Origin: Muribaculaceae bacterium
GTDB taxonomy: Bacteria > Bacteroidota > Bacteroidia > Bacteroidales > Muribaculaceae
Reading direction: 5' to 3'
Assembly: GCA_017462345.1 (NCBI GenBank)
Contig: JAFTRI010000036.1
Location: forward strand, 62,001 to 126,000
Length of the DNA: 64,000 nt
In this document: positions 12,872 through 62,204 of the stretch, in pieces
Numbering within the stretch: the stretch's first letter is position 1
Layout of the letters: the number at the start of each line of letters is the position of its first letter
Position numbers and translations under genes: made by a program
Notes under the pieces: generated by a model
What the model saw: the letters and a program-made list of their open reading frames with translations, nothing else
The model's database searches: none
What the model was told of the DNA's origin: nothing

Positions 12872-12891
12872 CATATAGTTCAATTATCCTT

Positions 12892-12932
12892 AAAGGTCAT
12901 CCGGCAGTCGTTATATGTCGGATGACCTTTTT
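12892..12932 (+). terminator. Rho-independent terminator
   Basis: AAAGGTCATCCG (12892-12903) pairs perfectly with CGGATGACCTTT (12919-12930), with two further T. It lies 20 bp after the M6 protease stop. Confidence 0.8.
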
Positions 12933-13018
12933 GATTCTGACCGGAGGCAAGATAAGGGTGTAAACCTCTTTCAGTTTCCCATGAAATTATGTAACTTTAC
13001 AATCATAAAACTTAAAGT

Positions 13019-20145: not shown

Positions 20146-20150
20146 ATAAA

Positions 20151-20822: not shown

Positions 20823-20828
20823 GCTCGT

Positions 20829-21956: not shown

Positions 21957-21988
21957 GTATTGAATTAGTTTGTAAAATCATCAATGAT

Positions 21989-22564
21989 CTAACGAAATAT
22001 TGTCTGAAATATTAGTTTTATATCATAGAAAAATGTATGATGTCGGTAGTATTCCAAATTAATTTTAACTTTATCCGGGAATATTACATTGTCATTATAT
22101 TCTTGTGGATTATTTACTTTAGCTAGTATTTCCTCTTCATTGGCGTATTTTAACGATGCCGGACCAGTTATCCCCGGTCTTAATTTAAGAATCAAACGAT
22201 CTTCGCCGGTGAGTTTGTCGGCATAACCCGGTACATCAGGGCGTGGACCTACAAAGCTCATATCACCTATCAATACGTTCCAAAGTTCAGGTAGCTCATC
22301 GAGTTTATATTTTCGCAGTATCGCTCCAAATGGGGTGATGCGACTTTCTCCCGCAACAGAAACAGATGAACCGGAATGGTTTATTGTCATTGTTCGAAAT
22401 TTAAACATGCGGAATAGTTTCGCATTGATTCCGACTCTATACTGAGTAAAAAATACCGGTCCAGGCATTTTTATTTTTATTAATATAGCTATTATTAGCA
22501 TAATAGGCCATATGAACAATAGTCCAATAAATGCAATAACACGATCAAATAAGAATTTAATCAT
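21989..22564 (-). CDS. PglC/WcaJ-type phosphoglycosyltransferase (sugar transferase)
   Basis: A monotopic membrane enzyme of 191 residues that moves a phospho-sugar from a UDP-sugar to undecaprenyl phosphate. An N-terminal re-entrant hydrophobic helix (about 5-30, with the Pro break near IWPIM) is followed by GPVFFTQYRVG, FKFRTM, the Asp-Glu catalytic dyad in KYKLDELPELWNVL (about 100-113), DMSFVGPRPDVP and LRPGITG. The short length matches PglC rather than the larger WbaP type. It starts 5 bp after the ATP-grasp gene. With the aminotransferase next door, a bacillosamine-like primer sugar is a reasonable guess. Confidence 0.92.
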   Translation of the reverse strand: MIKFLFDRVIAFIGLLFIWPIMLIIAILIKIKMPGPVFFTQYRVGINAKLFRMFKFRTMTINHSGSSVSVAGESRITPFGAILRKYKLDELPELWNVLIGDMSFVGPRPDVPGYADKLTGEDRLILKLRPGITGPASLKYANEEEILAKVNNPQEYNDNVIFPDKVKINLEYYRHHTFFYDIKLIFQTIFR

Positions 22565-22569
22565 AACTA

Positions 22570-23691
22570 TTATGGGTTCAACTTTTTGTTTTTGAGTAAT
22601 TTGTTAATATAGTAACTCATTTCACCAATAATTGCCTTTTTGTCATCTTGGCGAAAATCATCAAAAGCGTCGTAGCCTTTGAAAGAAAGTATCTGTCGTA
22701 ATTTTTGCCATGTCAAGGATAATGAAACGATAGAACTGACAAGTGTAATAATATCACCTAAAATCCATTTTGTTTTTGTCCCGTATTTGATATTTATTTC
22801 AGTATCGTATTTCCCTTGTGTAGCCAAACAATAGTGAATATAAGGAATGTCGAAGCCTGCAGCAATAGGTGTTGCAAGCCCTCCGGTATAACGTGCGTTT
22901 ACCTCGATGAATGCATATTCGTTTGTCTTTTCATTATATCGAAAATCAATTCCACAAACACCGTGATAATCGACAGAATCAAGCAGTTGTTTGGCAAATT
23001 CAGTTAATAGCGGAATATCAACTATAACGCGTTGCGTTGTGGTACCACCGCCATTTGTTTTTGTCAGTAAAGCTTTATAGACAGTAGCATGAAAAAATCC
23101 CGGGTATCTTATGCAGTCTACGCATATATCATATCCTGGAATAAATTCCTCAATCAAGATTTCTTCAGGATTATATTTGTCCAATATTATTTGAGCTTGA
23201 GACTCTGTTTTTGCAATATAGACCCCTTTTGCCGAATTACCTATTTTTGTTTTTATTATAAGCGGATAAGTGCAATTTTTTAAGTCGGAATATAGCTTTG
23301 GAGTCGGGACTTCGGCTTTATAAGCCATTAATGTTGCCTGATATTTATCTGATAAAGATTGTAGAAGTTTATAATCAGCAATTGGAATGATCAGTTCTTT
23401 AGGGAAACGGTTACGGTGTTTGGCTATTACCAATGATTCATCGTGTGTAGGTATAAGGACTTTGGGCTTGTATTCATAAATCCTTTCAATAAGACAGGAA
23501 ATAAAATTTTCCTCCTCAGTAAATGGGTCGGGATAGGTAAAATTGGCAGTAGCAAATTTGGACATACTGCAAATATTCCTATCTGATGTGTCCCCTACAA
23601 TAACCGACAATCCATGATTTGTCAAACATCGTAAAATGTTATATCCGACTCTATTCCAACAGTATGTTACTATTACATCACAATGTCTCAT
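22570..23691 (-). CDS. ATP-grasp enzyme of the glycan operon (first copy)
   Basis: A 373-residue protein with an N-terminal Rossmann-like domain (VIVTYCWNRVGYNILRCL) and an ATP-grasp core. The latter includes the nucleotide Lys of PLIIKTKIGNSAKG (about 140-153), EEFIPGYDICVDC (about 185) and the metal-binding FIEVNARYTGGL (about 258). Such enzymes activate a carboxylate as acyl phosphate and join it to an amine or thiol. In polysaccharide loci they are suspected of attaching amino acids or other acids to sugars. Its ATG is embedded in the TGA stop of the decayed acetyltransferase upstream (ATGA overlap), showing former coupling. Product unknown. Confidence 0.8.
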   Translation of the reverse strand: MRHCDVIVTYCWNRVGYNILRCLTNHGLSVIVGDTSDRNICSMSKFATANFTYPDPFTEEENFISCLIERIYEYKPKVLIPTHDESLVIAKHRNRFPKELIIPIADYKLLQSLSDKYQATLMAYKAEVPTPKLYSDLKNCTYPLIIKTKIGNSAKGVYIAKTESQAQIILDKYNPEEILIEEFIPGYDICVDCIRYPGFFHATVYKALLTKTNGGGTTTQRVIVDIPLLTEFAKQLLDSVDYHGVCGIDFRYNEKTNEYAFIEVNARYTGGLATPIAAGFDIPYIHYCLATQGKYDTEINIKYGTKTKWILGDIITLVSSIVSLSLTWQKLRQILSFKGYDAFDDFRQDDKKAIIGEMSYYINKLLKNKKLNP

Positions 23692-24331
23692 TTTGTGATA
23701 ATAAAATTATATGAATAATGTTTTACTCCTCCCATCTTGTATTTATATTCTTCTTCTCCTTGAGATAAGTCAAGGGTATGTATCTTGTTATTTGAAATCA
23801 AAAACTTAATTGTTTCATTTATCAGTAATATTCCGGGACTATATGATTTATACTTGTCGTTTATTGCTAAACGAGGTATATATCATAATCAGTTCCGAAA
23901 TGAATTGCAACATTCTGTATCTGTGTCAACGTGTTTTTATCAGCAAGTTCGATTATTCGAGAATCTGCTTTAACCTTATATAGGCTTAACGATTTGATTT
24001 CAGACATAAGCATTTCCCATGCTTTGTCAAGAGGATAGGTTGTATCATATAGAAAATCGGAGTAATTGTAACCATTATATCTGCCGAATAATTCTGTTGT
24101 ACCGTTTGTGTAATGAAGTATTGGGGCTATCATTATTGGAATGTTGTTTTTTCTGATAACATAATAGCGGATTTTGCAACGATCAATAATTCTGTAATAA
24201 TAGCTAAGTTTTACGGTTCGCTTAAAATAATCGTATTCGAGAAAGGGAGGGATTGAACGGTTCTGATTATAAAGATATTTCCAATCCTCCTTTATGCTAT
24301 CCAATTTTGAGTATTTACTTAGTGAAAGCAT
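23688..24331 (-). pseudogene. Decayed GNAT-type acetyltransferase (internal deletion)
   Basis: Two pieces of one acetyltransferase are seen in different frames. The first, 154 codons from ATG 24331, has family-like segments WKYLYNQNRSIPPFLEYDYF and LFGRYNGYNYSDFLYD and stops at TAG 23867. The second, readable from about 23882 to TGA 23688, gives IPRLAINDKYKSYSPG and then LDLSQGEEEYKYKMGG, which is the conserved C-terminal acetyl-CoA/substrate part of the same CelD/BcsL-like family. Intact relatives are about 330 residues, so roughly 110-130 residues of the middle are missing and the frame is lost. The TGA overlaps the ATG of the ATP-grasp gene, and 6 bp separate it from the upstream GT2 gene. 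Loss of the acyl decoration is inferred. Confidence 0.8.
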
Positions 24332-24337
24332 TCGTGT

Positions 24338-25141
24338 CTATTTGTTTTTATGCAGATATGAGTATAACCAATTGGGCAGTAATCCTAAAATGATAGGTCT
24401 TAATGCATATATTTGTGTATAAAACGGGAGTCTTAGCATGCGATAGCCAATATGTCTGACGTATGCTTCATTAAGGCGATTTCTGAACGTGCGGCGTTTG
24501 AACGCATTACGGTCATCACGCATTTTATATAATGGTTCATCCAGATTGTGCCCACGATAACCGATTGCATACATCTTAAACCACAGGTGGTAGTCCTCTA
24601 CACGCAGTAGTCGCTTATTTTCAGTGTAGCCATTGACTGCAATATATGCTTCCCGTCTAACCATACATGGGGCATGACAAAATGGAGTGCCGTGAATAAA
24701 GTCACTAATCTCCGGATATGGAATATTGTTCTTCCCGACTTTAAAATCTCCGTTTTCATCAAAATATATCATGGGACAACTTACGATTGCAATATCGGGA
24801 TTCCTGTCAAGAAACTCTATCTCTTTCTGAAACCGGTCAGGAAGAGAGATGTCATCACCATCCATGCGTGCGATGTATTCGGTATCAGCCTTCATCAGAC
24901 ACCTGTTTAAGGTATAGTTGAGTCCTTTGTTGCATTCATTTTTCAGTAATGTGATACTGGAGAATCGCTCAGAATATTTTTTAGCAATATTATAAGTGTT
25001 GTCGGTAGACCCGTCGTCACATAATATGATCCTGAATCTTTTATAGCTTTGGTTTAACAGTGAGTCAATTGCTTCGGCAATGGTAGATTCACAGTTATAC
25101 ATTCCCATGATAACGGATATACGTAAATTTTGCGATCTCAT
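24338..25141 (-). CDS. Family 2 glycosyltransferase
   Basis: A 267-residue GT-A fold enzyme. The N-terminal SVIMGMYNCESTIAEAIDSLL, the DDGSTD nucleotide-binding motif (about 41-46), the DxD-type metal site RMDGDDISLPDRF (about 92) and the acceptor-side VEDYHLW motif (about 180) are all present. It would add one sugar of the repeat unit on the inner face of the membrane. The spacing is 7 bp from the polymerase gene and 6 bp from the pseudogene. Donor and linkage are unknown. Confidence 0.9.
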   Translation of the reverse strand: MRSQNLRISVIMGMYNCESTIAEAIDSLLNQSYKRFRIILCDDGSTDNTYNIAKKYSERFSSITLLKNECNKGLNYTLNRCLMKADTEYIARMDGDDISLPDRFQKEIEFLDRNPDIAIVSCPMIYFDENGDFKVGKNNIPYPEISDFIHGTPFCHAPCMVRREAYIAVNGYTENKRLLRVEDYHLWFKMYAIGYRGHNLDEPLYKMRDDRNAFKRRTFRNRLNEAYVRHIGYRMLRLPFYTQIYALRPIILGLLPNWLYSYLHKNK

Positions 25142-25148
25142 GATGTCG

Positions 25149-26231
25149 TTACATTATGTATGTGAATGTGATACATGCAATCAGTATCAGCCCGGTTACA
25201 AGCCCTTGATGCTTGAAAATATTAAATTTAGCAAGAGGATATGCAAGTAGAATCGGATACATAAACCATGATAGATAGGCAAAGCGATTACTGTAGGCTA
25301 CGGTATTGATCAAAATCCAGAAGGCGTTGGCAAAAATATATGTGTGAAGCAGAAACATATAAGTTTTGTCTGTTATACCCTTTTTTACAATTGCATACCA
25401 TCCAAGCAGTATGGGTGCGGCACTATAGAGGATAAAATCCCATCTAAAACCTGATGTGGAAAATTTGTCTGTTGATGTTTCCATATTCAGGTAATGTGCC
25501 ATACGGTCATCATCGCTTAACCAAATAAATAACTCCTTAAAATAATCCTGGAATAAGAGACTGAAAATTATACATGACAGCCAAATGCTTAGGTTTGTAT
25601 TTGTGTTTTTCAAAAACAAAGCAGCGGATGCGGCTACAATAACAACTCCGACAGTCTTGTGTGTTGCCATACCGAGGAGTAGCAGGCTATAACCTAAAAT
25701 TGTCTGTATTTTATTCTTGCAAAAAAAAGACAGGCCTACTAATACAATACTTGTACTCATGCCATTACGTATGCCGTTTGTTGCATATCCCCAAAAACTG
25801 AATGCCGTAAAACAAAATATCAGAATCAGGAAATAATGCCGGGGAAGCCACCTCAAAGAAGCTATTGCCATCCCAATTACATAAAATACCGCAATCACAA
25901 GAAGCCATCCTGATGCATTGGTTAATTCAAGGCAGATATATTCTACTGCAAGGAAAAAAGGATCTTCCGCAAATCCTTTAATGCTGACCCATTCGCCTCT
26001 CTGAACAAGATTGAATATCTGTGTATAAAGATAGGTGTCTTCATAGCACCATATAGGTCTTGTGCCAATGTAAAGTGTTACAAATATTACAAATATAAAT
26101 GATAAAACATTATTGTTTGTCCCTCGTAATAATTTGTTATTGGATAATGTCATTATATATAATGAATATAATAACCCGATTATACTTATGACGTTAAGCC
26201 ATATTTGTGTTGAGAAGATGCTTGAAAACAT
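25149..26231 (-). CDS. EpsG-family Wzy-type polysaccharide polymerase
   Basis: A 360-residue polytopic membrane protein with roughly 10-12 hydrophobic helices and the layout of EpsG/Wzy polymerases: a loop with RPIWCYEDTYLYTQIFN (about 58-74), RNGMSTSIVLVGLSFF (about 155) and ATHKTVGVV (about 188), residues seen near the active site in this family. It should polymerise undecaprenyl-linked repeat units on the outer face of the inner membrane. It is the only polymerase candidate in the operon. Sequence is poorly conserved in the class, so the call rests on topology, motifs and position. Confidence 0.8.
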   Translation of the reverse strand: MFSSIFSTQIWLNVISIIGLLYSLYIMTLSNNKLLRGTNNNVLSFIFVIFVTLYIGTRPIWCYEDTYLYTQIFNLVQRGEWVSIKGFAEDPFFLAVEYICLELTNASGWLLVIAVFYVIGMAIASLRWLPRHYFLILIFCFTAFSFWGYATNGIRNGMSTSIVLVGLSFFCKNKIQTILGYSLLLLGMATHKTVGVVIVAASAALFLKNTNTNLSIWLSCIIFSLLFQDYFKELFIWLSDDDRMAHYLNMETSTDKFSTSGFRWDFILYSAAPILLGWYAIVKKGITDKTYMFLLHTYIFANAFWILINTVAYSNRFAYLSWFMYPILLAYPLAKFNIFKHQGLVTGLILIACITFTYIM

Positions 26232-26237
26232 TTTGAT

Positions 26238-27311
26238 TTAGTTTATCAGATGTATCCAATTATGCATGATGACATCAATTGAATATCGAGATGCTGAGAT
26301 CTTAGCGTTATGTGAATACCTTAATAGTTTCGATTTGTCAGATAGAAGTGATGATATGGCCTGTGCTATAGCTTCAGAGTCATTTGTAGGAACGATAATA
26401 CCGTTTTCTTCGTGCTTGATTATATCCATGGGCCCCTCACATGAGGTTGCAATACATGGAGTTCCGCATTCCATTGCCTCAATCAATACCATTCCGAATC
26501 CTTCCACTCGGGATGGCAGTATGCACACTGCACTTTCCACATATTTCTCCTTGATGTAATGTTGTGGTGGATGAAGGAATACCGTATTTTGCATCTTATT
26601 GTCATAAATCAAATTTTCCATCATGGAAAAATTGTCTTTCGGTGCCCCATAGATATGCAATGTGAATTTCGGAAATCTGTCATGGATTTTAGCCCAAGCC
26701 TTAATCAGTAGATCATGGCCTTTTACACGTGACATTGATCCTACTGAAATTATTTTTTCCCGGGAATCGACCGATGGAACTTCTTTGCAAGAAAATGGCA
26801 GCGGATTAGGGATCACAGTCAATCCATTAGCATACTTCCAGTCTTTGCGGTTACTTTCGGTCAAGACGACAAAGCGATTGAAATATCTTGAGCCGAAGTC
26901 CATCATCCTGTTTATAATGAAGGCTTTTAATCCTGAGCCATTTATTGCTTTTGTTGTGTGACGTTCATATATGAATTTTGCAGGATATTTGAATATCAAC
27001 GGTATATATAGCCCTTTCAAACCGTCATCGGCAACAAAAATTACATCAGGGGCAATTTTGTGGATAAATTTTTTTATACCGTAAAAATACTGTCGGGAAA
27101 AGCGGAATATATTACCTGTCGCCTCAACATTATGAAGAATAACTTTGCCACTTAACTCATAGTATGGATTCTGATGTTTTTCATTAAGAATTATGATATG
27201 CACATTATGTCCAAGTGTGTCTGCAAAATAAGATGCTTTGAGACAAACAACACGTTCGAGCCCTCCGCTTCCGGATAATCCGTTTGTTATGTATAATAAT
27301 GTCTTAACCAT
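26238..27311 (-). CDS. Family 4 glycosyltransferase
   Basis: A 357-residue GT-B enzyme. The N-terminal domain begins LLYITNGLSGSGGLERVV with the acceptor-side glycine loop. The C-terminal domain has ISVGSMSRVKGHDLLIKAW (about 188) and the donor-binding EGFGMVLIEAMECGTPCIAT (E-x7-E motif, about 268-287). It is spaced 6 bp from the polymerase gene and 2 bp from the next GT4. It probably adds a sugar to the repeat unit; donor not determinable. Confidence 0.92.
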   Translation of the reverse strand: MVKTLLYITNGLSGSGGLERVVCLKASYFADTLGHNVHIIILNEKHQNPYYELSGKVILHNVEATGNIFRFSRQYFYGIKKFIHKIAPDVIFVADDGLKGLYIPLIFKYPAKFIYERHTTKAINGSGLKAFIINRMMDFGSRYFNRFVVLTESNRKDWKYANGLTVIPNPLPFSCKEVPSVDSREKIISVGSMSRVKGHDLLIKAWAKIHDRFPKFTLHIYGAPKDNFSMMENLIYDNKMQNTVFLHPPQHYIKEKYVESAVCILPSRVEGFGMVLIEAMECGTPCIATSCEGPMDIIKHEENGIIVPTNDSEAIAQAISSLLSDKSKLLRYSHNAKISASRYSIDVIMHNWIHLIN

Positions 27312-27313
27312 TA

Positions 27314-28513
27314 TTATAGCCTAATAAGATCATAAACTTTCGTAATCTCGTTTTCATTCCCAAAATCGTGAGAAGCAAGATATGCCGACAGGGTATCTCT
27401 CATGGATTTGTCGGTAGCCATCCTGTAGATTGCATCAGCAATTGACGTGTTATCCATATTACATATAATACCATCTATTCCATCTTTTACTTGTGAGGAT
27501 GCTGTAGGATAATTTGTAACAATGACAGGACGTTGTAGGATCTGGGCTTCTCTTACGGTCACCGATTTTCCTTCATAGCGCGACGGTTGTGCATATATGT
27601 CGCAATTGGCAATATACGGATATGGATTATCCTTTTTCCCAAGCAGGATTACACAGTCGTCGGTATTTGTTGTGTGAATATTCCTGTCGATGAGGCTGCG
27701 GTCTCCATATCCGATTATATACCATTTGAATTTAAGGCCTTTATCCCGTAGTATCTTTGCTATAAATGGAATATTGTCATAATTTTTTGCATCGCAAAAA
27801 CGTCCGACTGAACAAATTATGATATAGTCACTGTCATATTCTTCCGGAATATCCAATAGAGATTGTTCCTTTACAAATGCAGGTGATATGATGTTTTCAA
27901 TCTCAATAATCTTATTTCTTAAAGATGGGAATGTTTTTAGGAATGCCGATGTGACATCGGGTGAAATAGAGATTATATTATTAAATGATTCCCATATAGG
28001 CAACTCGGTGATGGCGTTTACAGAAACTGTTGAATAATCCGTGTGAATCCAGGCCACTTTTTTAGATGCATTGACTTTGTTGCGTACAATATGGTGAGGA
28101 GTCAAAAAACTTATGGCAAGATCATATTTCCCGAATTTTTTTAATGACGGGAGTAGGGGAGTCGTATATTTTGCTACATAATAAAATATCGATGCGTCTA
28201 CCGGAGACAATGAATTATGCCGCATCCGATAAATGCGGTGCATTATACGTGCGAAAATCCGGGCAAAGACTATGTCGATATTCCCTTCTCTCAGAACACT
28301 TGTAATCGGCCGTTCAATGGATGAGTAACGTTTATCCTCAGGCAATAAGTTTATATATGCAGGGATGAGTGACATAAATTCCCCGGTGTGTTGGTTTATA
28401 AATAAATCAACATCAACCTGTTCAGGGTCAATCGCGTTGAGTAGTCCGAGTAATGCCCGCTCGGCTCCTCCGATTTCCATATAATGCATGTTTATAAAAA
28501 CACGTGGTTTCAT
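27314..28513 (-). CDS. Family 4 glycosyltransferase
   Basis: A 399-residue GT-B enzyme. The N-terminal domain starts FINMHYMEIGGAERALLGLL; the C-terminal donor site includes ICSVGRFCDAKNYDNIPF (about 235) and the shortened E-x7-E region PSRYEGKSVTVREAQILQRP (about 315). The GxxRAL-type loop and the YEGKSVT motif resemble GalNAc/Glc-type transferases of capsular loci. Its start overlaps the preceding ATP-grasp gene by 4 bases. Confidence 0.9.
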   Translation of the reverse strand: MKPRVFINMHYMEIGGAERALLGLLNAIDPEQVDVDLFINQHTGEFMSLIPAYINLLPEDKRYSSIERPITSVLREGNIDIVFARIFARIMHRIYRMRHNSLSPVDASIFYYVAKYTTPLLPSLKKFGKYDLAISFLTPHHIVRNKVNASKKVAWIHTDYSTVSVNAITELPIWESFNNIISISPDVTSAFLKTFPSLRNKIIEIENIISPAFVKEQSLLDIPEEYDSDYIIICSVGRFCDAKNYDNIPFIAKILRDKGLKFKWYIIGYGDRSLIDRNIHTTNTDDCVILLGKKDNPYPYIANCDIYAQPSRYEGKSVTVREAQILQRPVIVTNYPTASSQVKDGIDGIICNMDNTSIADAIYRMATDKSMRDTLSAYLASHDFGNENEITKVYDLIRL

Positions 28514-52039: not shown

Positions 52040-52762
52040 TTACGAGATGTGCAATATAATGACGGTAACGTTATCCTCGCCTCCGGCATTTATTGCAGCG
52101 TTTACGAGTTGACGAGCCCCGCCTCCAGAAGTTATGATTTTTTCGATCATACTGTCATCAATCATATCATACAAACCGTCGGAACAAATAATGTATTTAT
52201 CCCCTGGGACAAGGTATGTAGGGACGATGTCGATAAACGCGTTGTCAATTCCTAAGGCATTATATATCAGATTGGAAGGGATGGAATCATCTCCTGTCCT
52301 GTTTCGTTCGGAATGATCGGTTGTAAGTTGTTTGAAATGTTCATATCTTATACGGTATACTCTGCTATCGCCTATATTCAGCAGGAATGCTTTATTCTCA
52401 TATATAAATATTCCCGAGAATGTACATCCCATTCGAGTCCCGTCGACATTGTCAATAATTTCCCTATTTATATCTTTTACCCATTGTTTAACATGGAGTA
52501 TTACTTCGTTCTCGTCAAGTCCCTCAGACAGCGTGGATAAAAAACTGCTGAAAGACCTGGTTGCCATCTCTGATGCTATTTCTCCATTATCAAAGCCTCC
52601 CATGCCATCGGAGACGATAGCCGTAAAACGTATACCATCAGGCATGTCAAATGAAAAACTTACAGCACTGTCACGAACAAATTCGTTAAATACCAACGCC
52701 ATGTCTTCATTATTCCGGCGAATTTTCCCCGTTTCACTGATTGCCTCGTATCTGATAGTCAT
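52040..52762 (-). CDS. PP2C-type protein serine/threonine phosphatase
   Basis: A 240-residue metal-dependent phosphatase of the Stp/PppA kind. Metal-binding motifs: VSDGMGGFDNGE (about 53-64), GDSRVYRIR (about 137), CSDGLYDMIDD (about 193) and the final GGEDNVTV (about 228-235). No membrane segment, so it acts in the cytosol. It is the last gene of the six-gene signalling unit and would remove phosphates placed by the membrane kinase at 56711. It lies 3 bp downstream of the FHA gene. All catalytic aspartates are intact. Confidence 0.95.
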   Translation of the reverse strand: MTIRYEAISETGKIRRNNEDMALVFNEFVRDSAVSFSFDMPDGIRFTAIVSDGMGGFDNGEIASEMATRSFSSFLSTLSEGLDENEVILHVKQWVKDINREIIDNVDGTRMGCTFSGIFIYENKAFLLNIGDSRVYRIRYEHFKQLTTDHSERNRTGDDSIPSNLIYNALGIDNAFIDIVPTYLVPGDKYIICSDGLYDMIDDSMIEKIITSGGGARQLVNAAINAGGEDNVTVIILHIS

Positions 52763-52765
52763 GAT

Positions 52766-53323
52766 TTATTCTACTATGAAGTCGTATGTATTTGCAATTT
52801 TTATCGTATCACCGATCTTGAAGCTTAATGTAGGTTGACATTTTATGTTATTTACCTTTGTCCCGTTACGCGAGTTCAGATCGGTAATAGTCCAATTTGC
52901 ACCGGTATTATGCAATTGGGCATGTGTGCCGGATATATATATCAGACCGCTTAATTCTGTAACATAATCACCGTTGGTTCTGCCTATAATCGCATTGTCT
53001 GACAGGTACAGTACAATATTTTCACTTCGGCATTTAAGTGCACTTGGAGATACTGTTGTGATTGTTGACGGATCTTGAGAAACACATGCGGAAGAGGTGT
53101 CAGGTTTAAAAATTGCTTCAACCTGACTTCGATCAGTGCTATGCTGAGAATTATCATGTAGAGACTGTGCCGGGATCAGTTTTTTCCCACACAGCCCGCA
53201 ATGTTTACCTTCACCTTTTCCAAACACATGACATGACGGGCAGATGTAAATTTGTCCGCCACATTGATCGCAATAGAAACTGTCGGGATCTATTATCATT
53301 TTGCAATATGGACATTCAGTCAT
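52766..53323 (-). CDS. Zinc-ribbon / FHA-domain protein
   Basis: A 185-residue cytosolic adapter. The N terminus has three CxxC-type pairs (CPYCKMIID, CDQCGGQIYICPSC, CGLCGKKL, about residues 4-45), enough for one and a half to two zinc ribbons. A polar linker (about 50-95) leads to an FHA domain (about 97-185) with AIIGRTNGD, the SGTHAQL Ser-x2-His site and DLNSRNGTKVN, the residues that read phospho-threonine. It sits between the phosphatase (3 bp) and the AAA+ gene (13 bp). It probably recruits partners phosphorylated by the operon's kinase. Confidence 0.92.
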   Translation of the reverse strand: MTECPYCKMIIDPDSFYCDQCGGQIYICPSCHVFGKGEGKHCGLCGKKLIPAQSLHDNSQHSTDRSQVEAIFKPDTSSACVSQDPSTITTVSPSALKCRSENIVLYLSDNAIIGRTNGDYVTELSGLIYISGTHAQLHNTGANWTITDLNSRNGTKVNNIKCQPTLSFKIGDTIKIANTYDFIVE

Positions 53324-53336
53324 AAACGGTGCTTAT

Positions 53337-56300
53337 TTATTGGGTTATTATCATATCGTCCCTGCGAAGAATATATAGTTCGTCCTTGTCAAATCCGGGA
53401 GCATCAATTTCTTTTCTTAATCGTCGTCCTTGATTTAATTTTACTCTGTCAAAGTAATTTCTGGCTTCTCGTGCATTTGCAAAGTTTGCACTTTTATTAT
53501 AAACCAGAATTGAAAAGTAACGGTTCATTTCTTCTTCTGCATCATGAGTCAGCCTGAGACCATTCTGTTTCACGATATTCTTGAATATTTGTGAAAGTTC
53601 CGGAGCCGTATAGTCCTCGAACATGATTGTACGTGTATAGCGTGATTCCAGTCCGGAATTTGTATTTATCCATTGTTTCATCTCTCTTGGGTATCCGGCT
53701 GCGATACTTACCATTTTTCCTTTGTAATCAAGTAATTTAGTGAGCAATACCGGCATCGCGTCTTTTCCGAATCCGTTAGCTCCGTCATTTAGTCCATACG
53801 CTTCATCAATAAAGAAAATGCCTCCTACCGCCCGATTAATCATCTGTTCTGTTTTCTTGGCAGTCTGTCCGACGTAACCGGCTATCAGATCCTTTGTTGT
53901 TACTTCAAGTACTTTATTTGACGGTAGCAATCCCAGCGTGTAGAATATATTCCCCATTATACGTGCTACGGTGGTCTTTCCTGTTCCCGGATTTCCAAGG
54001 AAAAGATAATGATCCAGACTTATATTGGCTTTTTCTCCACTTGCCTCAGCTCTACGCCGTTCAATTTCTATGGTATCGGCAAGTTCTCGTACTGCAGTTT
54101 TAACAGAAGACAGTCCCACCAATTGATCCAATTCCCTCATACATTCCGTAATGTCAATCTTCTTTGGCGGGTCGTATGGTATGTCACATTCTCGTATCGT
54201 ATTTAGTTCTTCATCCGATGCATTCTCATCCAATCGCATTGCTTGCCGTTCGATTGTGTCATTGAAGAGCTTTATGACGGTTCTTGCATTTCCGAATGTC
54301 TTATTTTTGGCTGTGACCATTTCCTCGATTTTCTTGTATAACAGTTCATCGGCCGCAGCTGTAAGGTGATAGTTGTTTTTTTTGACATGTTGCTTGAATA
54401 TCTCGGCAAGCTGGTCGACTGTATAGTCATCTATGTGTATGCGATGGGTGAACCGGCTTGAAAGTCCCGGATTGGCATTTTCGATAAACTCCTCTATCTC
54501 GGTTTTATAACCGGCAATAACGGTAATGAACTTGCCACCGTCATTAACCATTCTGGTCATAAGTGCCTCTATTGCCTCAGTTCCGGCTTTGTCTTTGTCA
54601 CCCGAGCCGTTGATTGGAACAAGATTATATGCTTCATCGATAAATAGGATTCCGCCCATTGCCTCATTTACGGCCTTGTCCATGTTCACTCCACCAGAGT
54701 TGGCATAACTGTCCAATAATGTTTTGCGTTCACGTTCCACTACATGGCCTTTCGGTAGCACCTGCATTGCTTTGAATAGTTCTCCCAACCGTTTTGCGAT
54801 CATGGTTTTTCCTGTACCGGGATTACCGGTGATTGCAATGTGAATATTGTCCAGGGTAGCTTTACCGGAACCGTTAAGACTCCGGCGTTTCTTTATTTTA
54901 ATGCTTTTGGTTATTGCCTTTAGGGTTTCTTTAACCGATTCCATACCCACAATATCATCCAGTTTCGCCAGTATCTCATCGGTGGTCAGTTCCTTATTTT
55001 CCTCTCCTTCGATATCTTTCAGGGAGATCAGTTTCTCGTTGCTTGGATTGTATGTGCCGTTTTCTCTTGATTTGGCGTTACGGTCCGATACCGAGTCTAT
55101 TGTGCGCTTAAACTTGTTACGTACCTCTCGTGCGTTACCGAAAGTTGCTGTGCGGCTCAGGTACATTTTTTCGAAAATATTGTCTATTTGAGCCTTTGCC
55201 TCATCCGATAAGGTGTACCCGTTTTCGCTAACCATACCTCTGAATATTTCAGCCAGTTCCGGTCCGGTAAAATCCCTGAAATTGACAGTTCGGTTAAATC
55301 GTGACTGCAGACCTGAATTTACCTGCATGAATTCGTTCATTTCCTTTGTGTATCCTGCAAGGATTACAGTAATTTCACCTCTGCGGTTTTCTGCCAATTG
55401 GAGCAACGTATCAACGGCTTCTTTCCCAACGCTGTCATTCTCAGAGGCCATGAGTGAATAAGCCTCATCGATGAACAGGACACCACCCATAGCTTCATCA
55501 AACCGTGACGCAACAAGTTTGGGCGTGTCGCCAACATATTGTGAGATGAGATCTTTTCTTGAGACTTCCACAAGTTGACCTATGGGGAGCACGCCGAGTG
55601 CATTAAGTGCATTGGCAAACAGCCGGGCCATTGTAGTTTTGCCTGTACCGGGGTTACCGAGGAATTGGAAATGATCCTCTATTTTGATTTGAGCATCTGT
55701 GCCTTTTATCTCACGCTCGGCAGTAATCTTGTTGCCTATTGAACGAAGTACTTTTTTTATGTCTTCAGTCCCCGTATATTTGTCAAATTCTGCCATTACC
55801 TCATCAAATGACTTTGGAATGAATTCCTTGCCATTAACGAGATTAGCACCGATAGAATTGTCGGTTATATTATTAGATATTGCCGATAGGCTTATGTCAT
55901 TGGCTCGCTTGGCGGCATTATGCCCCATTACAGCCAGCGCATCATCCGGGTTGCGCTTGTCATTGACGAATATCCTGCGCAGCTTTTGCTCCGCTTCATC
56001 GGTCAGAATCCATTGTTTGTCACGCAAGATGTTTTTTGTTATTGCAACAAGACCATCTATACTTATTTCCGATGTCTCTAAAAAATAATTTATTGCCGAG
56101 GCTGAGTTCGGATTGCTGTTGAAATAGTTTTTAAGCCGTTTTTGCCCCGTAAAAATCACTATCGGTTTGGTCTGATCCGATTTCCATCCTCGCATCGGTT
56201 GGAGTATATAGTCGATTTGCGCAACATCGGCAGCCTCTCCTTCCGGCACAAGTTTGTGCGCTTCTTCAATGATCAGCACTCCATTGCCTATTTTTTTGAT

Positions 56301-56699
56301 ATTGTCATCCAGAGTTTTGACCCAATTGGAGTAATCCACTGGATTAACGATGGTTGCAGTAGGTGATTCTGTTATACCCGCATTGAAGAATTCTTGAGCG
56401 ATATTCTTGGCAACTGTTGTTTTACCGGTTCCCGAGTCTCCTGTTATCACAAAACTTAATTCCATGCGACCTTTTATCTTCAGTTTCTGATTGCGTTGCG
56501 CCATGGAACAGGCTTTTTGAATTATATCCTGAAGTATTCTCTTTATGTTATCCTTGTCAATAAGAGAGGGGAACAGGACTCCGGAGTTAACACTGCTTCC
56601 TCCGTTGTTGCCGGATAATTGCCTTGCAATCGGTGTTCCGCACCATTTGCAGACCTTGGCAATTTCCCGGTTACTTCTTCCGCATTTTCTACAATCCAT
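53337..56699 (-). CDS. Zinc-ribbon protein with four tandem CbxX-type AAA+ modules
   Basis: A 1120-residue protein. It opens with a zinc ribbon (CRKCGRSN...CKWCGTP, 3-22), followed by four AAA+ modules. Walker A sites are GDSGTGKTT (about 86), GNPGTGKTT (about 346), GNPGTGKTM (about 625) and GNPGTGKTT (about 903). Matching Walker B sites are VLIIEEAH, VLFIDEAYS, ILFIDEAYN and IFFIDEAYG. Modules 2-4 carry the SGLxSRF/Y arginine-finger region and belong to the CbxX/CfqX clade; module 1 is divergent (EE instead of DE). CbxX proteins remodel protein complexes such as Rubisco. Here the partner is unknown, but position between kinase and FHA genes points to a regulated remodeller. Confidence 0.9.
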   Translation of the reverse strand: MDCRKCGRSNREIAKVCKWCGTPIARQLSGNNGGSSVNSGVLFPSLIDKDNIKRILQDIIQKACSMAQRNQKLKIKGRMELSFVITGDSGTGKTTVAKNIAQEFFNAGITESPTATIVNPVDYSNWVKTLDDNIKKIGNGVLIIEEAHKLVPEGEAADVAQIDYILQPMRGWKSDQTKPIVIFTGQKRLKNYFNSNPNSASAINYFLETSEISIDGLVAITKNILRDKQWILTDEAEQKLRRIFVNDKRNPDDALAVMGHNAAKRANDISLSAISNNITDNSIGANLVNGKEFIPKSFDEVMAEFDKYTGTEDIKKVLRSIGNKITAEREIKGTDAQIKIEDHFQFLGNPGTGKTTMARLFANALNALGVLPIGQLVEVSRKDLISQYVGDTPKLVASRFDEAMGGVLFIDEAYSLMASENDSVGKEAVDTLLQLAENRRGEITVILAGYTKEMNEFMQVNSGLQSRFNRTVNFRDFTGPELAEIFRGMVSENGYTLSDEAKAQIDNIFEKMYLSRTATFGNAREVRNKFKRTIDSVSDRNAKSRENGTYNPSNEKLISLKDIEGEENKELTTDEILAKLDDIVGMESVKETLKAITKSIKIKKRRSLNGSGKATLDNIHIAITGNPGTGKTMIAKRLGELFKAMQVLPKGHVVERERKTLLDSYANSGGVNMDKAVNEAMGGILFIDEAYNLVPINGSGDKDKAGTEAIEALMTRMVNDGGKFITVIAGYKTEIEEFIENANPGLSSRFTHRIHIDDYTVDQLAEIFKQHVKKNNYHLTAAADELLYKKIEEMVTAKNKTFGNARTVIKLFNDTIERQAMRLDENASDEELNTIRECDIPYDPPKKIDITECMRELDQLVGLSSVKTAVRELADTIEIERRRAEASGEKANISLDHYLFLGNPGTGKTTVARIMGNIFYTLGLLPSNKVLEVTTKDLIAGYVGQTAKKTEQMINRAVGGIFFIDEAYGLNDGANGFGKDAMPVLLTKLLDYKGKMVSIAAGYPREMKQWINTNSGLESRYTRTIMFEDYTAPELSQIFKNIVKQNGLRLTHDAEEEMNRYFSILVYNKSANFANAREARNYFDRVKLNQGRRLRKEIDAPGFDKDELYILRRDDMIITQ

Positions 56700-56710
56700 T
56701 TCGGCTAATA

Positions 56711-59700
56711 TTACTCTTTTTCAACTGAAAATTCCTGTTTTGTCTTTTTCCCTTTTTTGACGTAGACACCGTTCAGCCCGACAATCTCTCCGTCTTCATT
56801 TTTTATTGGCGTACATAGATACGTGTTCTTGTCATCGGGCGAACCGTCGATTTTAATTCTTGAAAGGCTGAAGGATTCCATGTCATTAACGTTAACAATT
56901 CCGGTAATATCGTACACTGTCGGAGTGTCGTACAGTACTCTCATTTCGCCTATAAGTCTGACATTGTCACGTTTTATATCTGTTTCCTTTAGTGTTATCG
57001 AAATGTTTTGCCCGTCAAACGTTCCGTAGTAACTTCCTGCCAACGACGATACATTGCTCTCTGTCCTTATCTCAGTTTTTTCATGTTCGAGCTCTGTAGC
57101 CTTATTGGTTACCCAATTTACAAATAGCACTGAGAGTACCGTAAGTATGATTGTGAAGATGACATCTCGCCGCAGTCCGCTTATCTGTTTTTTTGCTTCA
57201 TTAGCTCCATCGTCATATACACATGCCGGATAGTTGGAAGGAAGAGATGGCAAAAGCTTGTCAGTCGAATTGAATGCCGCTCCAATCTTTGCAAAAGTTT
57301 CTGCCTCGTTCAAGTCCATATTTGAATACTTGTCTTTTAGGGATTTTTTCCCGATTGTAAAAAACTTCCGTATATATATAAATGCTATCACGGCGATAAT
57401 GGCAATTAAAACCCATGGTACTGCAACACTAATTTTCATTAACAGCCACACTAAGCCGTAGTATATTATACCGAATGCTATAACACCGGCAATCCAGTGG
57501 ACTGTAAACAGCAGATATAATCCCACTATTATACCCGCAATACCGCCCACGAAATTCCCGATACCGCCCATTATGTCTTTGAATATACCCGAATCGGTTG
57601 TCGCTAAGGTATATATTCCGGCACAGCATGCAAGCAGCATCGGGACAAGGCATAGGAGCAAGACGCCCCATTTTACAGTATTGACCTTTTTCCATGCATT
57701 ATTGAATTTGCTCTTTGCCGCTTTTATTGTCGCGGAGATTGCATTGCTCCTCTTTGCATTGGTTGAGTCTGGAACATGCCGGTTCAGATAGTCACAATAA
57801 TCTCGCGTAAGATCCATATAGGAGTTCCGGTTATAGTCGGCGTTCGGATTCTCCTGGAATTGTAGCGCAAGCCAGTCGACCATAAGATCAATCTGCATCT
57901 CATTCAGCCTGTTGCTTTTCAGTTTCGGCTCTTTTTCAAGCTCCGGGATATTGCGTACCGTTACGCCGTTTATGGTCAATGGGATATTCTCATTGGTGAT
58001 ACCGGTTACAATCTTCATCAGGGCAATGCGGTTATTGTATGGTGCGTATTTCATCCTGTTGTCATCGGAGTCGAATTCCGTACAGTACTTTATCCAACTT
58101 ATCTGATTGGAATATACTTTCTTTGATTCAAGATACATCGCCAGTCGCGTATCATCGAAGTTGCGACCCACGATCTGCCCTGAAAGATTGAACGACCGGT
58201 TCGGAATCCCCATTATCTCCTTCGTCAATTCATGCATTACACCGTCACATGTAAACATGTCTGTGGCATCTTTCGGTTTTAGATCATATCCGTAATTGGG
58301 AGCAAAAGCGTATATGATTTTCCATAAACGTGTGCTTGGTGAAATCTCTCTGCCATCTTTTTTTAGGCATTCTCTGAGCATGGCAGAGTTGTATTTCTCC
58401 ATCCACACGAGAAATTCGGTTGTGTATAGAATACTGATATTGCTATCGTTAATCCTGTTGCCTGCTATTAGCTTGAAAAAATCCTGTAAGTCGGATATTG
58501 ACAGCGAATTGCCATTATCCTCCATGATATATGGACGTGACGGGTCAAGAGTGTATCCGATGAATCTCATTGCTGACAAAGGATTCTTTTTCATCAGCTC
58601 CTGCGCGCTCTTCACTCTTTGAGAAAAACCTATCCGCCTCAGATAAACCCAAAGTTCATGTGTCGGCTTGGTCAGTTCTTTACCATAAATTGTTATGTTA
58701 CTGAAAATTTCTTCAGCGAGTTCCTGTTTGGTCTTGACGCTGTTTCCCTTTTTCCCGGTGTAAGCGAGTTCCGGATTTAGAACGAGACAAGCGGCATATA
58801 AACCGGCATCCTGATCTCCAGGATACATCTTTTCGGTGATGTCGTCTATCTCCATGGCATCCTCGGGACGTTCTGCTTCCCGTAACCATTTGGCTACATG
58901 TTCACTATATAGGTAGCGTTTTGCCAATGCTTTATTTGCCCACATTATCTCACCTAATTCTTTGGGGCTGTGAGCTATAAGATTATCTTTGGCGCTGAAT
59001 ATTATTCTGAAGTTTTTGATATTGTCATTCACGGCAAACGGGTCGCGATAGATTACTTCACCTTTTGCCCATCTTTCAATATCTTCGTATGTGGCACGTT
59101 TTGCGGGATTCATTCGGGTGAGTGCCTTGATTAACGATAATGTGTGTTCCGACATCTCATGCAGGGTAGGATAGGGAATGGTTTCCTCCCTCTTGTCCTG
59201 CAAGAGCTTCCTTTCGTTGGCGGTCAACACCCCTTCCCCCATCCACAATGCAAGTAACGTCATACCCATTGCATACCAGTCAGATGATTTTGTAACTGTT
59301 GTAACTTCTCCGGGAATATTGCAGTCATACATTTCAGGAGCGGCATAGATGGGTGTCCGACAGAAGTCAACAACTACATTCCCGTTGCTGTCAAAATGCC
59401 TTCCGATACCGAAATCGGTCAGAACGAATTCTTTTTCTTCCGTACCGGTAAACAGAAAATTGGCTGGTTTTATGTCTCTGTGCAGAATGTTGTTATGGTG
59501 ACAGTAATCGATTGCTGCAGCCATGCGTATTGCAATTTCTTTCAGTCTCTGTTCATCCCCGTTAAGTTTTAGGACAGCGAGCGAACGTCCTTTGCAGTAT
59601 TGCATCAGTTCGTAATCGTACTGTTGTCCGTTTTTGGCATCAGTCCATATCCCATGGGCATAGATGTCGACGAGCAACTTGTTACCTTTCACTTTGTTTA

Positions 59701-60034
59701 GTGTCTGTAGCACCGTGTGATCAGGGTGATGCCCCGGCTTATATAGTTTTAATGCGAAATCTTTTCCTTCGGACGATACATGTATTATTTTTGCTTCTCC
59801 CGACTGTTTGGAGATTATCGAGTCAAAACGGTATGAGATTCCCTCGATAACATATTCTTCATATTCAGGCACATCTGATACTTTTGATTTACTGTTGTGG
59901 TCAGAACCGGTAGATACTGCCGTTCCTGTCTGAGCAGCTATTGCGGTACTGCCGGCTACGGCGGTGTGTTGCTCAGGTACTGCCGTGCCTGTCGGGGCTG
60001 CTATTGCTGTGCTTGATGGCTTGCTTGTATTCAT
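56711..60034 (-). CDS. Membrane Ser/Thr protein kinase with Thr-rich N-terminal tail
   Basis: An 1107-residue multidomain kinase. The first 45 residues are Ala/Thr-rich with two near-identical copies of STAIAAxTGTAV. The kinase domain (about 60-320) has the Lys in FALKLYKP (about 95), HRDIKPANFLF (about 186), LTDFGIGR (about 206) and PIYAAPEM (about 232). The Gly-rich loop (SKQSGEAKI) is degenerate. An alpha-rich region without a recognised domain spans about 330-760. Four hydrophobic segments lie at about 785-890 and one at about 960-980, before a C-terminal beta-rich domain (about 1000-1107) likely outside the cytosol. It is not a PASTA kinase. The Thr-rich tail could hold autophosphorylation sites read by the FHA protein. 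Confidence 0.9.
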   Translation of the reverse strand: MNTSKPSSTAIAAPTGTAVPEQHTAVAGSTAIAAQTGTAVSTGSDHNSKSKVSDVPEYEEYVIEGISYRFDSIISKQSGEAKIIHVSSEGKDFALKLYKPGHHPDHTVLQTLNKVKGNKLLVDIYAHGIWTDAKNGQQYDYELMQYCKGRSLAVLKLNGDEQRLKEIAIRMAAAIDYCHHNNILHRDIKPANFLFTGTEEKEFVLTDFGIGRHFDSNGNVVVDFCRTPIYAAPEMYDCNIPGEVTTVTKSSDWYAMGMTLLALWMGEGVLTANERKLLQDKREETIPYPTLHEMSEHTLSLIKALTRMNPAKRATYEDIERWAKGEVIYRDPFAVNDNIKNFRIIFSAKDNLIAHSPKELGEIMWANKALAKRYLYSEHVAKWLREAERPEDAMEIDDITEKMYPGDQDAGLYAACLVLNPELAYTGKKGNSVKTKQELAEEIFSNITIYGKELTKPTHELWVYLRRIGFSQRVKSAQELMKKNPLSAMRFIGYTLDPSRPYIMEDNGNSLSISDLQDFFKLIAGNRINDSNISILYTTEFLVWMEKYNSAMLRECLKKDGREISPSTRLWKIIYAFAPNYGYDLKPKDATDMFTCDGVMHELTKEIMGIPNRSFNLSGQIVGRNFDDTRLAMYLESKKVYSNQISWIKYCTEFDSDDNRMKYAPYNNRIALMKIVTGITNENIPLTINGVTVRNIPELEKEPKLKSNRLNEMQIDLMVDWLALQFQENPNADYNRNSYMDLTRDYCDYLNRHVPDSTNAKRSNAISATIKAAKSKFNNAWKKVNTVKWGVLLLCLVPMLLACCAGIYTLATTDSGIFKDIMGGIGNFVGGIAGIIVGLYLLFTVHWIAGVIAFGIIYYGLVWLLMKISVAVPWVLIAIIAVIAFIYIRKFFTIGKKSLKDKYSNMDLNEAETFAKIGAAFNSTDKLLPSLPSNYPACVYDDGANEAKKQISGLRRDVIFTIILTVLSVLFVNWVTNKATELEHEKTEIRTESNVSSLAGSYYGTFDGQNISITLKETDIKRDNVRLIGEMRVLYDTPTVYDITGIVNVNDMESFSLSRIKIDGSPDDKNTYLCTPIKNEDGEIVGLNGVYVKKGKKTKQEFSVEKE

Positions 60035-60049
60035 GATTGATTATTTTTC

Positions 60050-61069
60050 TTACACGTATATTGTCGATGATTTGAATGATGTTGTTTCCACTGTGATGCT
60101 TTTGTATACCCATTTCCCTCCGAGTTCGGGTTGTGCGCATTCCGACGGTTGGGAATGCCGGCATCCGCACAGGTTACATATCCATGCAACCGGAGCCTGT
60201 AGCGTCTCCTTGCCGGTTACTGTGAGAGTTACCTTTCTTGCGCAGAAGAAATTGCGTTTCTGTTCGGGTGTTGACTTGGGCTCCGGCATCATGGCATCGA
60301 GTTCCTCCTGCATTTCCTCTGCAAGTCTCCGGTATTCCGTCATTATCGCCTCGTTATTGTCGGTAACGGTGCAGGCCTGAGGTTTCTCGACCTGAGGTTT
60401 TGAAGTATGTTCCTCATGTACCGTGTGGGAAGAAATGTCAGGTACAGCCCCAATTGATGATAGTAGCGACTGGTAGCGGTTGAGCTTTTGACGGGTTGAG
60501 TCGTCGAGCTGCGACGGAGCTGTAAGGATGTCGGTTGACGCCGGAATGTCTGTACCGGTTTCACGTATTTTTTGTTCAAGCTCGGCAAGTCTTTCCGCTA
60601 TCTGCATGGCCCGTTGGAATCGGGGATCGGACTGCGCTCTTTTTATCTCCTCTCGAGCCATTTCGTTCAGCGGTTCATTGCACCGGTGGCAGAAACTGCG
60701 GAAACTCCGTGCTCCACATTTGGGACATGGTATGCCGTCGTGCGGATTTCCGCATTCAGGGCAGAAACGCATTCCTTCAGGTATCTTTCCTCCACAGAAT
60801 GTACACTTGTCTGCCGACAGTGGCCGGCCGCATTCCTTACATAGTGCCAATCCCGGCTCCACTGTCGCGTGGCAATGCCGGCAGCTGCCTGTCCCGAGTC
60901 GTGCTCCACATTCCTCGCAGAACAATATACCGCTTCCTACTCGCGCCCCGCAATTATGACAATGATATTCTGCCGTTGCCTCTGCCGGCTGTTGCTCGGC
61001 TATGGTCTGCACTCTTGACACCTGTTCGGCCTTATATTTGACCTGCTTATTTTGTTGCACTTTTTCCAT
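60050..61069 (-). CDS. Multi-zinc-ribbon protein
   Basis: A 339-residue soluble protein. Eight CxxC knuckles follow each other between about residues 37 and 140 (CHNC, CEEC, CRHC, CKEC, CTFC, CPEC, CPKC, CHRC), making four zinc ribbons of the double-zinc-ribbon kind. A helical middle (about 140-255) with REEIKRAQSDPRFQRAM and ELEQKIRE may coil. The C-terminal 75 residues form a separate cysteine-bearing module (FFCARKVTLTV, WICNLCGCRH), probably beta-rich. I know no function for this combination. It is spaced 15 bp from the kinase gene and 13 bp from the coiled-coil gene, so it is part of the signalling unit. Confidence 0.85.
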   Translation of the reverse strand: MEKVQQNKQVKYKAEQVSRVQTIAEQQPAEATAEYHCHNCGARVGSGILFCEECGARLGTGSCRHCHATVEPGLALCKECGRPLSADKCTFCGGKIPEGMRFCPECGNPHDGIPCPKCGARSFRSFCHRCNEPLNEMAREEIKRAQSDPRFQRAMQIAERLAELEQKIRETGTDIPASTDILTAPSQLDDSTRQKLNRYQSLLSSIGAVPDISSHTVHEEHTSKPQVEKPQACTVTDNNEAIMTEYRRLAEEMQEELDAMMPEPKSTPEQKRNFFCARKVTLTVTGKETLQAPVAWICNLCGCRHSQPSECAQPELGGKWVYKSITVETTSFKSSTIYV

Positions 61070-61082
61070 TATCCGTAATAAT

Positions 61083-62204
61083 CTATTCTTTCCTTTTCAG
61101 AAGTATGACCAGAAAATCCGTTTTGCTCCAGAATCTGTTCTGGTTAATAATTTTGATATATTCTGGTTTTTTCTCATAACTTCCATTAGGATGTTTCGTC
61201 AGTATCTCGTAACGAGACCTGCAGTCGACAGGGATGGGAATTTTGGATATTTTGCCTTTATCGCCTTGGAAAAATCTTGATTTATCAAACATGCCTTCCT
61301 CGTTCAGGTCTACACTGTAATTCCAACTCAATAAACTTTTCACGTGTACGACATTCAATGCCTCTAATTCATTTTTTGTTCCGAGTATATACCAGCATGC
61401 TTGATTCTCACCGAGAAATACACTCGAATTTTCTTGCATATATGTTATGGTATATACTACAGAATTAACATCTTTTGTTAGTGTTTCTATTTTGTCGTCA
61501 AGATTCTTGATACTTTCTGTAAGATCTTTCGGGATTATTAGTATTCTCTCATCATAAACATTAATTTTAGGCTTTGATTTTGACCTATCAGAAACCATTG
61601 TATCTTTTCGTTCAACTTTATAACTTTTTACTTCTTTAGAGTACCGTATAAAATCGTCATTTATTTTAGATTTATCTTCAGCCTCATATTCTTGATCGAT
61701 ATACTCAATAATAATGTTTTTCTTCAATTGGACTAATTCAACATCGATATTTTCTATCTGTGTATTGATTTCAACTAATTGATTATGGTTTTCAATTAGT
61801 TGCCCATGTAAAATGTTAATATTATTATAATTAGTAGTACTTGGATTATTTTTGTATTCTTGGATATGTTTTTTTATATCTTTTTCTATTGACGTGATTT
61901 GATTATTGATATTATTGAAACGCTTATCAAGTTCCAGATACTCATTCAATAGACTTTTTACCTTTAAATTTAATTTCTGCTTTGCTGTAGAAAAAAATTC
62001 TTCAATTTCATTGTCATATTCAGCTTGTTCCCCTGTCGTTAAGCCATTGCTGCCATCATAATATGCATCACCCCATTTTCCTATACCCAACCATCCCAAA
62101 AATAATGAGGGTTGACCGAGAAAATTAGTAACCCATGCAACAACGAGAGCAATTATAATCAACTTTATATAACACCCTCCAATTTTATCCATAAAATCAC
62201 TCAT
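61083..62204 (-). CDS. Membrane-anchored coiled-coil protein, first gene of the signalling unit
   Basis: A 373-residue protein of unknown family. One hydrophobic segment lies near the N terminus (CYIKLIIIALVVAWVTNFLG, about 11-30). A Lys/Glu/Asn-rich heptad region (about 70-200, with QLIENHNQLVEINTQIENID) follows, then a second short coil (about 235-260). A compact C-terminal domain (about 265-373) has QACWYILGTKNELEA and SKTDFLVILLKRKE. The gene is clearly more AT-rich than those after it. As the first of six tightly spaced genes it may be a membrane scaffold or input component; that is inference from position and shape only. Confidence 0.75.
   Translation of the reverse strand: MSDFMDKIGGCYIKLIIIALVVAWVTNFLGQPSLFLGWLGIGKWGDAYYDGSNGLTTGEQAEYDNEIEEFFSTAKQKLNLKVKSLLNEYLELDKRFNNINNQITSIEKDIKKHIQEYKNNPSTTNYNNINILHGQLIENHNQLVEINTQIENIDVELVQLKKNIIIEYIDQEYEAEDKSKINDDFIRYSKEVKSYKVERKDTMVSDRSKSKPKINVYDERILIIPKDLTESIKNLDDKIETLTKDVNSVVYTITYMQENSSVFLGENQACWYILGTKNELEALNVVHVKSLLSWNYSVDLNEEGMFDKSRFFQGDKGKISKIPIPVDCRSRYEILTKHPNGSYEKKPEYIKIINQNRFWSKTDFLVILLKRKE

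Follow-up and report, generated by a model that had tools for sequence, protein, structure and literature searches.

The window analyzed here, a 64,000-nucleotide stretch of the draft genome (2.09 Mb, 84% complete) of a Muribaculaceae bacterium (contig JAFTRI010000036.1, positions 62,001 to 126,000), holds an operon of six minus-strand open reading frames (ORFs), A to F, five of which, B-C-D-E-F, form a real conserved core: the kinase-FHA-PP2C theme in a variant that includes a multi-module AAA+ protein. This variant is apparently undescribed so far, and no description of the gene set was found in the open-access literature searched. The operon runs from 62204 to 52040, with intergenic gaps of 13, 15, 11, 13, and 3 bp. 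An earlier reading of this DNA (the original prediction) had proposed a signaling island of six same-strand genes with gaps of 3 to 16 bp; the six genes are real, their close spacing stands with a measured range of 3 to 15 bp, and the domains are as claimed, by Pfam matches above curated cutoffs. A double zinc ribbon is matched in both B and E, the latter also matching FHA; F matches PP2C, C matches Pkinase (106.5 bits), and D has four AAA stretches and three AAA_lid_6 stretches.

To establish how widely the arrangement is kept, we gathered 33 loci with profiles of D and then of the kinase and checked the five core genes by tblastn (which also identified E and F of L077 and B and F of L080). 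All 21 complete loci carry B-C-D-E-F on one strand and in fixed order, a recurrence from which we conclude that the operon is not a chance arrangement, and each of the 12 loci cut by contig ends shows its part of the same order; because the loci were collected using C or D, the presence of these two genes is by construction. The complete loci come from the window's family (f1) and five other Bacteroidota families (f22, f28, f59, f135, and f153). The loci do not count as independent, since L075 is closely related to L076 and the records behind L031 and L032 resemble each other. Extra genes stand between C and D in L079, L082, L090, and L040, between D and E in L081, and between B and C in L088, L105, and L106. 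Across 18 loci chosen among those with all five ORFs, the pairwise distances of the five core proteins correlate with one another (r of 0.71 to 0.87). The original prediction had named non-conservation as a unit as a ground against itself; when this was checked, the unit was found conserved for B-C-D-E-F but not for gene A, which has one recognizable relative, in L078, and is no core member.

The core also stands by itself within its host, and B goes with the kinase. No FHA domain other than that of E was found in the host genome (84% complete), and C scores highest among its Hanks kinases (110.3 bits, against 47.8 bits for the one remaining match, on a different contig), in line with the self-contained unit first proposed. 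The part of B beyond its ribbons occurs in 16 of 297 genomes of the family, all of them among the 19 that bear the kinase and none without it, and in the other three kinase-bearing genomes the contig breaks off on the side where B would lie. B-like ribbon regions, by comparison, occur in 28 kinase-negative genomes of the family, with matches confined to profile positions 7 to 113; therefore, ribbons alone are no mark of the system. The ribbon stretches in these 28 genomes (e.g., G096:C168:5979-6236) belong to other proteins, many of them with ORFs of 430 to 470 amino acids.

Gene C (56711..60034, 1,107 amino acids) encodes the membrane Ser/Thr kinase. Behind a Thr-rich tail (residues 1 to 52, 59879..60034), which is modeled with low confidence and predicted to be disordered, lie the protein kinase domain (residues 57 to 326, 59057..59866), a mostly helical domain (residues 340 to 757, 57764..59017), a set of membrane helices (residues 758 to 987, 57074..57763) that number four by hydropathy and five by reading of the model, and a C-terminal beta domain (residues 999 to 1106, 56717..57040), possibly a periplasmic sensor. 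Residues 337 to 475 have no PDB sequence match with an E value of ≤0.1, and the VIA rows for this protein span residues 53 to 326 only. C is a Hanks-type kinase by its catalytic Lys, Asp, and Asn, its DFG Asp, and its kinase fold, with Lys96, Asp187, Asn192, and Asp207 kept in all 30 readable sequences. Gene E (52766..53323, 185 amino acids), the core reader, combines a double zinc ribbon, a linker, and an FHA domain (FHA domains read phosphothreonine), and the phosphopeptide-site residues Arg115 and Ser131 are kept in 24/24 sequences and Asn153 in 22/24. Gene F (52040..52762, 240 amino acids), the core eraser, is a PP2C phosphatase that keeps Asp52, Asp132, Asp195, and Asp230 in 22/22. The writer, reader, and eraser named at the outset are thus conserved in their active- or binding-site residues.

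Gene D (53337..56699, 1,120 amino acids) carries an N-terminal zinc ribbon, whose C3, C6, C17, and C20 are kept in 29/29 sequences, and four CbxX-type AAA+ modules, the type being assigned from an AAA module with AAA_lid_6; module 1 lacks the SRF/Y arginine-finger motif, and D proteins have three to five modules in one chain plus the ribbon. The membrane kinase (with its transmembrane segments by hydropathy) and the AAA+ protein of the original prediction are both supported. D exceeds the NCBIfam cutoffs of SpoVK, CbbX, and EccA simultaneously, which we attribute to the adding up of four modules, and none of the three names was adopted. In L038, D and E are separated by a 174-amino-acid fragment (12627 to 13151) that resembles the final AAA module of D. 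Gene B (60050..61069, 339 amino acids), the core scaffold, consists of zinc ribbons and a conserved C-terminal W-C-H-C-GGKW motif; it holds nine CxxC pairs rather than the eight first counted (by eye, eight fall within the ribbons and the ninth belongs to the C-terminal motif). Zinc ribbons are present in three of the six proteins, as proposed: B and E by Pfam and D by its N-terminal CxxC pair set.

The N-terminal tails of the kinases are rich in Thr, which makes up 9.8% of the residues against 5.1% in the rest of the kinase, with enrichment in 29 of 30 (a count that leaves out L089 and L090, which have no N-terminus, and L032, which lies outside the set), and Thr contexts repeat beyond shuffled expectation (P < 0.05) in 25 of 30; the window's own tail, in which TGTAV and STAIA each occur twice, is among the significant cases (P = 0.008). 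The motifs differ wholly between lineages, yet each is built around Thr: GTGTAIPS in L086, SNTGSQQGNPAWGGSPQK in L034, DKTLKPD in L038, DVHSTGRASGRGGNQEA in L079, PTSVPGAP in L083, and DKT[IV]R in L105 to L109. The last group spans two families and yet retains the motif in its wider form, [DE]-[KAS]-T-[IV]-R, and in L086 the motif is repeated up to eight times. At the DNA level, the L086 tail (11515 to 11684) is a coding tandem repeat of 24 bp in 7.1 copies, so that tail length may vary between strains by slippage.

The same lineage-specific words recur in the FHA protein. When each tail was compared with the linker and C terminus of E, the match to E of the same locus scored 2.83, against 1.94 (standard deviation, 0.15) for permuted loci (P < 1/20,000, n = 23, i.e., 23 of 24 E proteins, L089 having no tail), and the effect persists with 10 clade representatives (P = 0.0004). 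Controls with the kinase body (P = 0.26), the FHA core (P = 0.93), and proline-centered words (P = 0.31) were null. Among 22 loci inspected, 4 of them without a readable E, the motif is present in one or two copies in E of 11 of the 18 readable loci: EKTIR in L106, DATVR in L107, DKTVR in L108, EKTVR in L109, GTALP in L086, GGTS[IV]AGG (twice) in L087, GTIIP in L078, STLR in L102, and TTVGGR, TTIGGR, and KTIGR in L079, L081, and L082. These patterns were written by hand after the tails had been viewed, and therefore the permutation tests carry the statistics. The original prediction had supposed a docking code shared through zinc ribbons; judged from sequence comparison, a shared code may well exist, the one in evidence being a Thr motif common to the kinase tail and the FHA protein rather than the zinc ribbons with their putative docking role.

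We propose that the five-gene core acts as a phosphothreonine (pThr) switch at the inner membrane, in which tail phosphorylation, FHA recruitment, AAA+ remodeling, and PP2C reset follow one another, a scheme that we give about an even chance of being right and that is drawn from sequence. A signal, perhaps received through the beta domain at the C terminus of C or through its membrane portion, would activate the kinase, which would phosphorylate the repeated Thr residues of its own disordered tail and, in many lineages, the matching motif of E. Several of these sites would be bound at once by the FHA domain of E, so that E gathers at the kinase, and the zinc ribbons of E, B, and D would join B and the AAA+ protein to the assembly. 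D would then remodel or dismantle bound clients or the assembly itself, a role suggested by its co-conservation and by the remodeling role of its CbbX relatives; F would strip the phosphates and reset the switch, and variable accessory genes (here, gene A) would contribute clients or sensors. Inferred here are the phosphorylation and binding events, the linkage of B and D, and both the signal and the output. The original idea of a pThr regulatory unit is thereby supported in part, with five genes instead of six and a Thr code instead of a zinc-ribbon code.

An array of Thr motifs on a kinase with the same motif in an FHA adaptor suggests multivalent recruitment of the adaptor, and two described systems are precedents for such pThr/FHA assembly at membranes. 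In type VI secretion (T6SS), PpkA and Fha assemble into condensates at the membrane to which parts are recruited (PMC12607579), and in the mycobacterial transporter Rv1747 the FHA domain and disordered pThr segments cluster upon phosphorylation and disperse with phosphatase (PMC9312465). The T6SS Thr phosphorylation pathway (PpkA, PppA, and Fha) resembles the operon in encoding together an inner-membrane Ser/Thr kinase, an FHA reader, and a PP2C eraser, whereas the operon adds the CbxX-type AAA+ protein, the zinc-ribbon scaffold, and an array of Thr motifs in the tail of the kinase. The Mycobacterium system of Rv1747, PknF, and PstP shares FHA and disordered pThr-bearing segments, but its FHA domain and linker belong to the transporter, while here the Thr array is on the kinase and FHA is on a small zinc-ribbon protein. 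A bolder version, which we regard as possible but rather doubtful, is that the membrane kinase's fast-changing multi-Thr tail is self-phosphorylated and seeds an assembly or condensate with a coevolving FHA adaptor, to be dismantled by the multi-module AAA+ protein and PP2C; this would be a new class of bacterial signaling hub, in which each lineage rewrites the phospho-motif of kinase and reader jointly and every hub thus has a private code. If this were true, a pThr writer, reader, eraser, scaffold, and remodeler would be united in one compact, portable unit with natural motif variants; coevolution of FHA specificity and target would become testable, as would AAA+ dissolution of bacterial phospho-dependent clusters; and CbxX-type AAA+ proteins would have a function beyond RuBisCO repair and ESX secretion.

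Several observations weigh against the proposed switch. Serine is also raised in the tails (9.1% against 5.8% in the rest of the kinase, in 23 of 30), and in five tails the Thr repeats are not significant (L031, which is cut by the contig, L040, L061, L104, and L107, the last with P = 0.052). Tail-E matches centered on glycine (P = 5 × 10⁻⁵), alanine (P = 0.012), and serine (P = 0.023) are significant as well, though weaker, and common low-complexity composition may therefore account for some of the signal; the N-terminal linker of D also matches the kinase tail (P = 0.012), and the tail match is null for PP2C tails (n = 6, P = 0.92) and for B (P = 0.28). The window's own E has no clear tail motif (its best match covers 3 of 6 flanking positions, and none is found by pattern), the side of the membrane on which the beta domain of C (residues 999 to 1106) lies is uncertain, and the zinc-ribbon link of B and D to the assembly is inferred from co-conservation.

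The compositional signal, together with the DNA tandem repeat in L086, would suit an account in which the tail repeats are neutral coding repeats without a role and share motifs with E through local composition bias. We consider this quite improbable, as the Thr-centered effect is the largest, the kinase-body and FHA-core controls are negative, the clade-collapsed test is still significant, and L105 to L109 keep their motif across two families. Somewhat less improbable, yet still unlikely, is a regulator of envelope stress or surface remodeling that forms no assembly: C would phosphorylate D or clients directly, E would be a regulated inhibitor in the manner of OdhI and GarA, and the Thr tail would only tune the kinase. 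The one or two motif copies in E of 11 of 18 loci would fit a single regulatory site, and membrane accessory families with signal-like N termini (read by eye) in several loci also favor this reading, but the up-to-eightfold repeat in L086 and the lineage-by-lineage rewriting of the repeats are left unexplained.

The distribution of the operon is patchy. The kinase was sought in Bacteroidota and in phage, plasmid, and viral collections, and the AAA protein was also scanned against genome contigs. Beyond the 19 of 297 genomes of the family that match the kinase profile (the window's own included), matches were found in 0 of 11 other genomes of the genus, 6 of 393 genomes drawn across the order, and 7 of 395 drawn across the phylum (the own genome being counted in both draws). 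Genera g4 and g30 are each split over three groups in the tree of D, and the D proteins of G095 (genus g8) and G250 (g4) are nearly alike, a pattern that favors transfer within the family. The operon adjoins a porin gene in the window; 6 of 7 relatives examined carry a gene of about 700 codons one or two genes upstream of the porin, and here this gene is missing from the 13.5 kb that remain before the contig stops. For the M42 peptidase gene that lies past the operon, no match at 1e-40 was obtained in 24 relatives. We read the two together as an inserted island whose far end lies outside the view, and the five-gene core looks mobile. Carriage by a mobile element was rejected, in that the kinase has no relative in phages at 1e-10 or in plasmids at 1e-20. 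In viral contigs, 35 loci match the kinase profile (best E value, 5e-14, over residues 141 to 330 only), and the AAA protein has 102 matches, 80 of them listed; D matches 56 plasmid records, all below 60% identity and mostly from Streptomyces.

This patchiness, the island-like site, and the spread between genera of the family would suit an antiphage or other conflict system, in which infection would be sensed by the kinase, and D and the accessory genes, set free by the pThr switch, would act as effectors that arrest the cell. The accessory genes rotate between loci, some of their families occurring elsewhere as immunity proteins (SUKH), and KKP offers a precedent for kinase-phosphatase defense (PMC11341870). 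A defense role is possible; we think this form of it unlikely. The lack of a kinase relative in phages or plasmids tells against it, as do the mostly ordinary metabolic, transport, and regulatory genes flanking eight scanned loci and the lack of a nuclease or NADase-like effector among the scanned proteins. No full-length match to defense proteins was found: PADLOC matches of C and D are at the domain level, F has one weak match (PDC-M21C, 16.9 bits), B has two weaker ones, and ten accessory proteins have none. The "defense-like" character suggested originally accordingly found no direct support.

Other known systems differ from the operon in their parts. KKP shares kinase, FHA, and PP2C components; it is found in prophages and contains a pair of kinases, of which one is fused to FHA (PMC11341870), whereas here there is one kinase with a separate FHA protein, an AAA+ protein, and a scaffold. 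The prophage arrangement of neighboring kinases with PP2C is not seen, each locus having a single kinase gene and phages giving no match at 1e-10. A full-length match to MAD6 of MADS defense was likewise not found (58.8 bits against a cutoff of 460, over the kinase domain only). GAP1-N2 GTPase-centered systems are alike in having a kinase with a zinc ribbon beside PP2C; they are actinobacterial, with a vWA protein and a GTPase, and no FHA or CbxX protein is named with them in the passages of PMC7159879 consulted. The modules of D belong to the family of CbbX, SpoVK, and EccA, with solved relatives in CbbX (3zuh and 3syk) and EccA1 (9lur), from which D differs in its three to five modules per chain and its zinc ribbon. 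Membership in T6SS or Ter systems was rejected, in agreement with the original prediction: VipB (PF05943) was found in 0 of 24 operon-bearing genomes, a search in which only E. coli was positive among 14 controls and whose power for the Bacteroidetes subtype is not shown, and TerD is absent from 10 of 12 operon-bearing genomes, the window's own included, and in G250 and G304 lies on contigs other than that of the operon.

Gene A (61083..62204, 373 amino acids), the accessory member in the window, has an N-terminal transmembrane segment (one, by hydropathy), a long charged part that is coiled-coil-like as read by eye, and a C-terminal domain of the NF052320 (Cbp1) type. Its relative in L078 lies directly upstream of B (12993 to 13757), and both match NF052320, a collagen-binding adhesin, below the cutoff (55.7 and 71.5 against 90 bits); the operon context makes the adhesin name doubtful for both, and Cbp1 was dropped as a name for gene A. 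The GC content of gene A is 31.4%, compared with 40 to 52% for the other operon genes and 42.5% for the window.

In other loci, the accessory genes, which may be clients, sensors, or regulators, include Sel1 repeats, two transmembrane families, DUF1963, a GNAT-type protein, SUKH-like proteins, and two-component regulators. An unnamed helical family ending in MNPRVMFD or similar stands beside the core in seven loci (L033 at 7993 to 8790, L038, L074, L076, L077, L082, and L102), and two members scanned had no Pfam match above the cutoff. SUKH-like genes lie between B and C in L105 (4665 to 5198) and L106 (7289 to 8083), with weak Pfam matches, and a sensor-kinase-like gene with a LuxR-type response regulator lies upstream of the core in L034 (3031 to 5558) and L078 (domains scanned in L034). 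Elsewhere in the window, positions 20001 to 28000 have a GC content of 0.37 to 0.39, below the 0.43 of the window.

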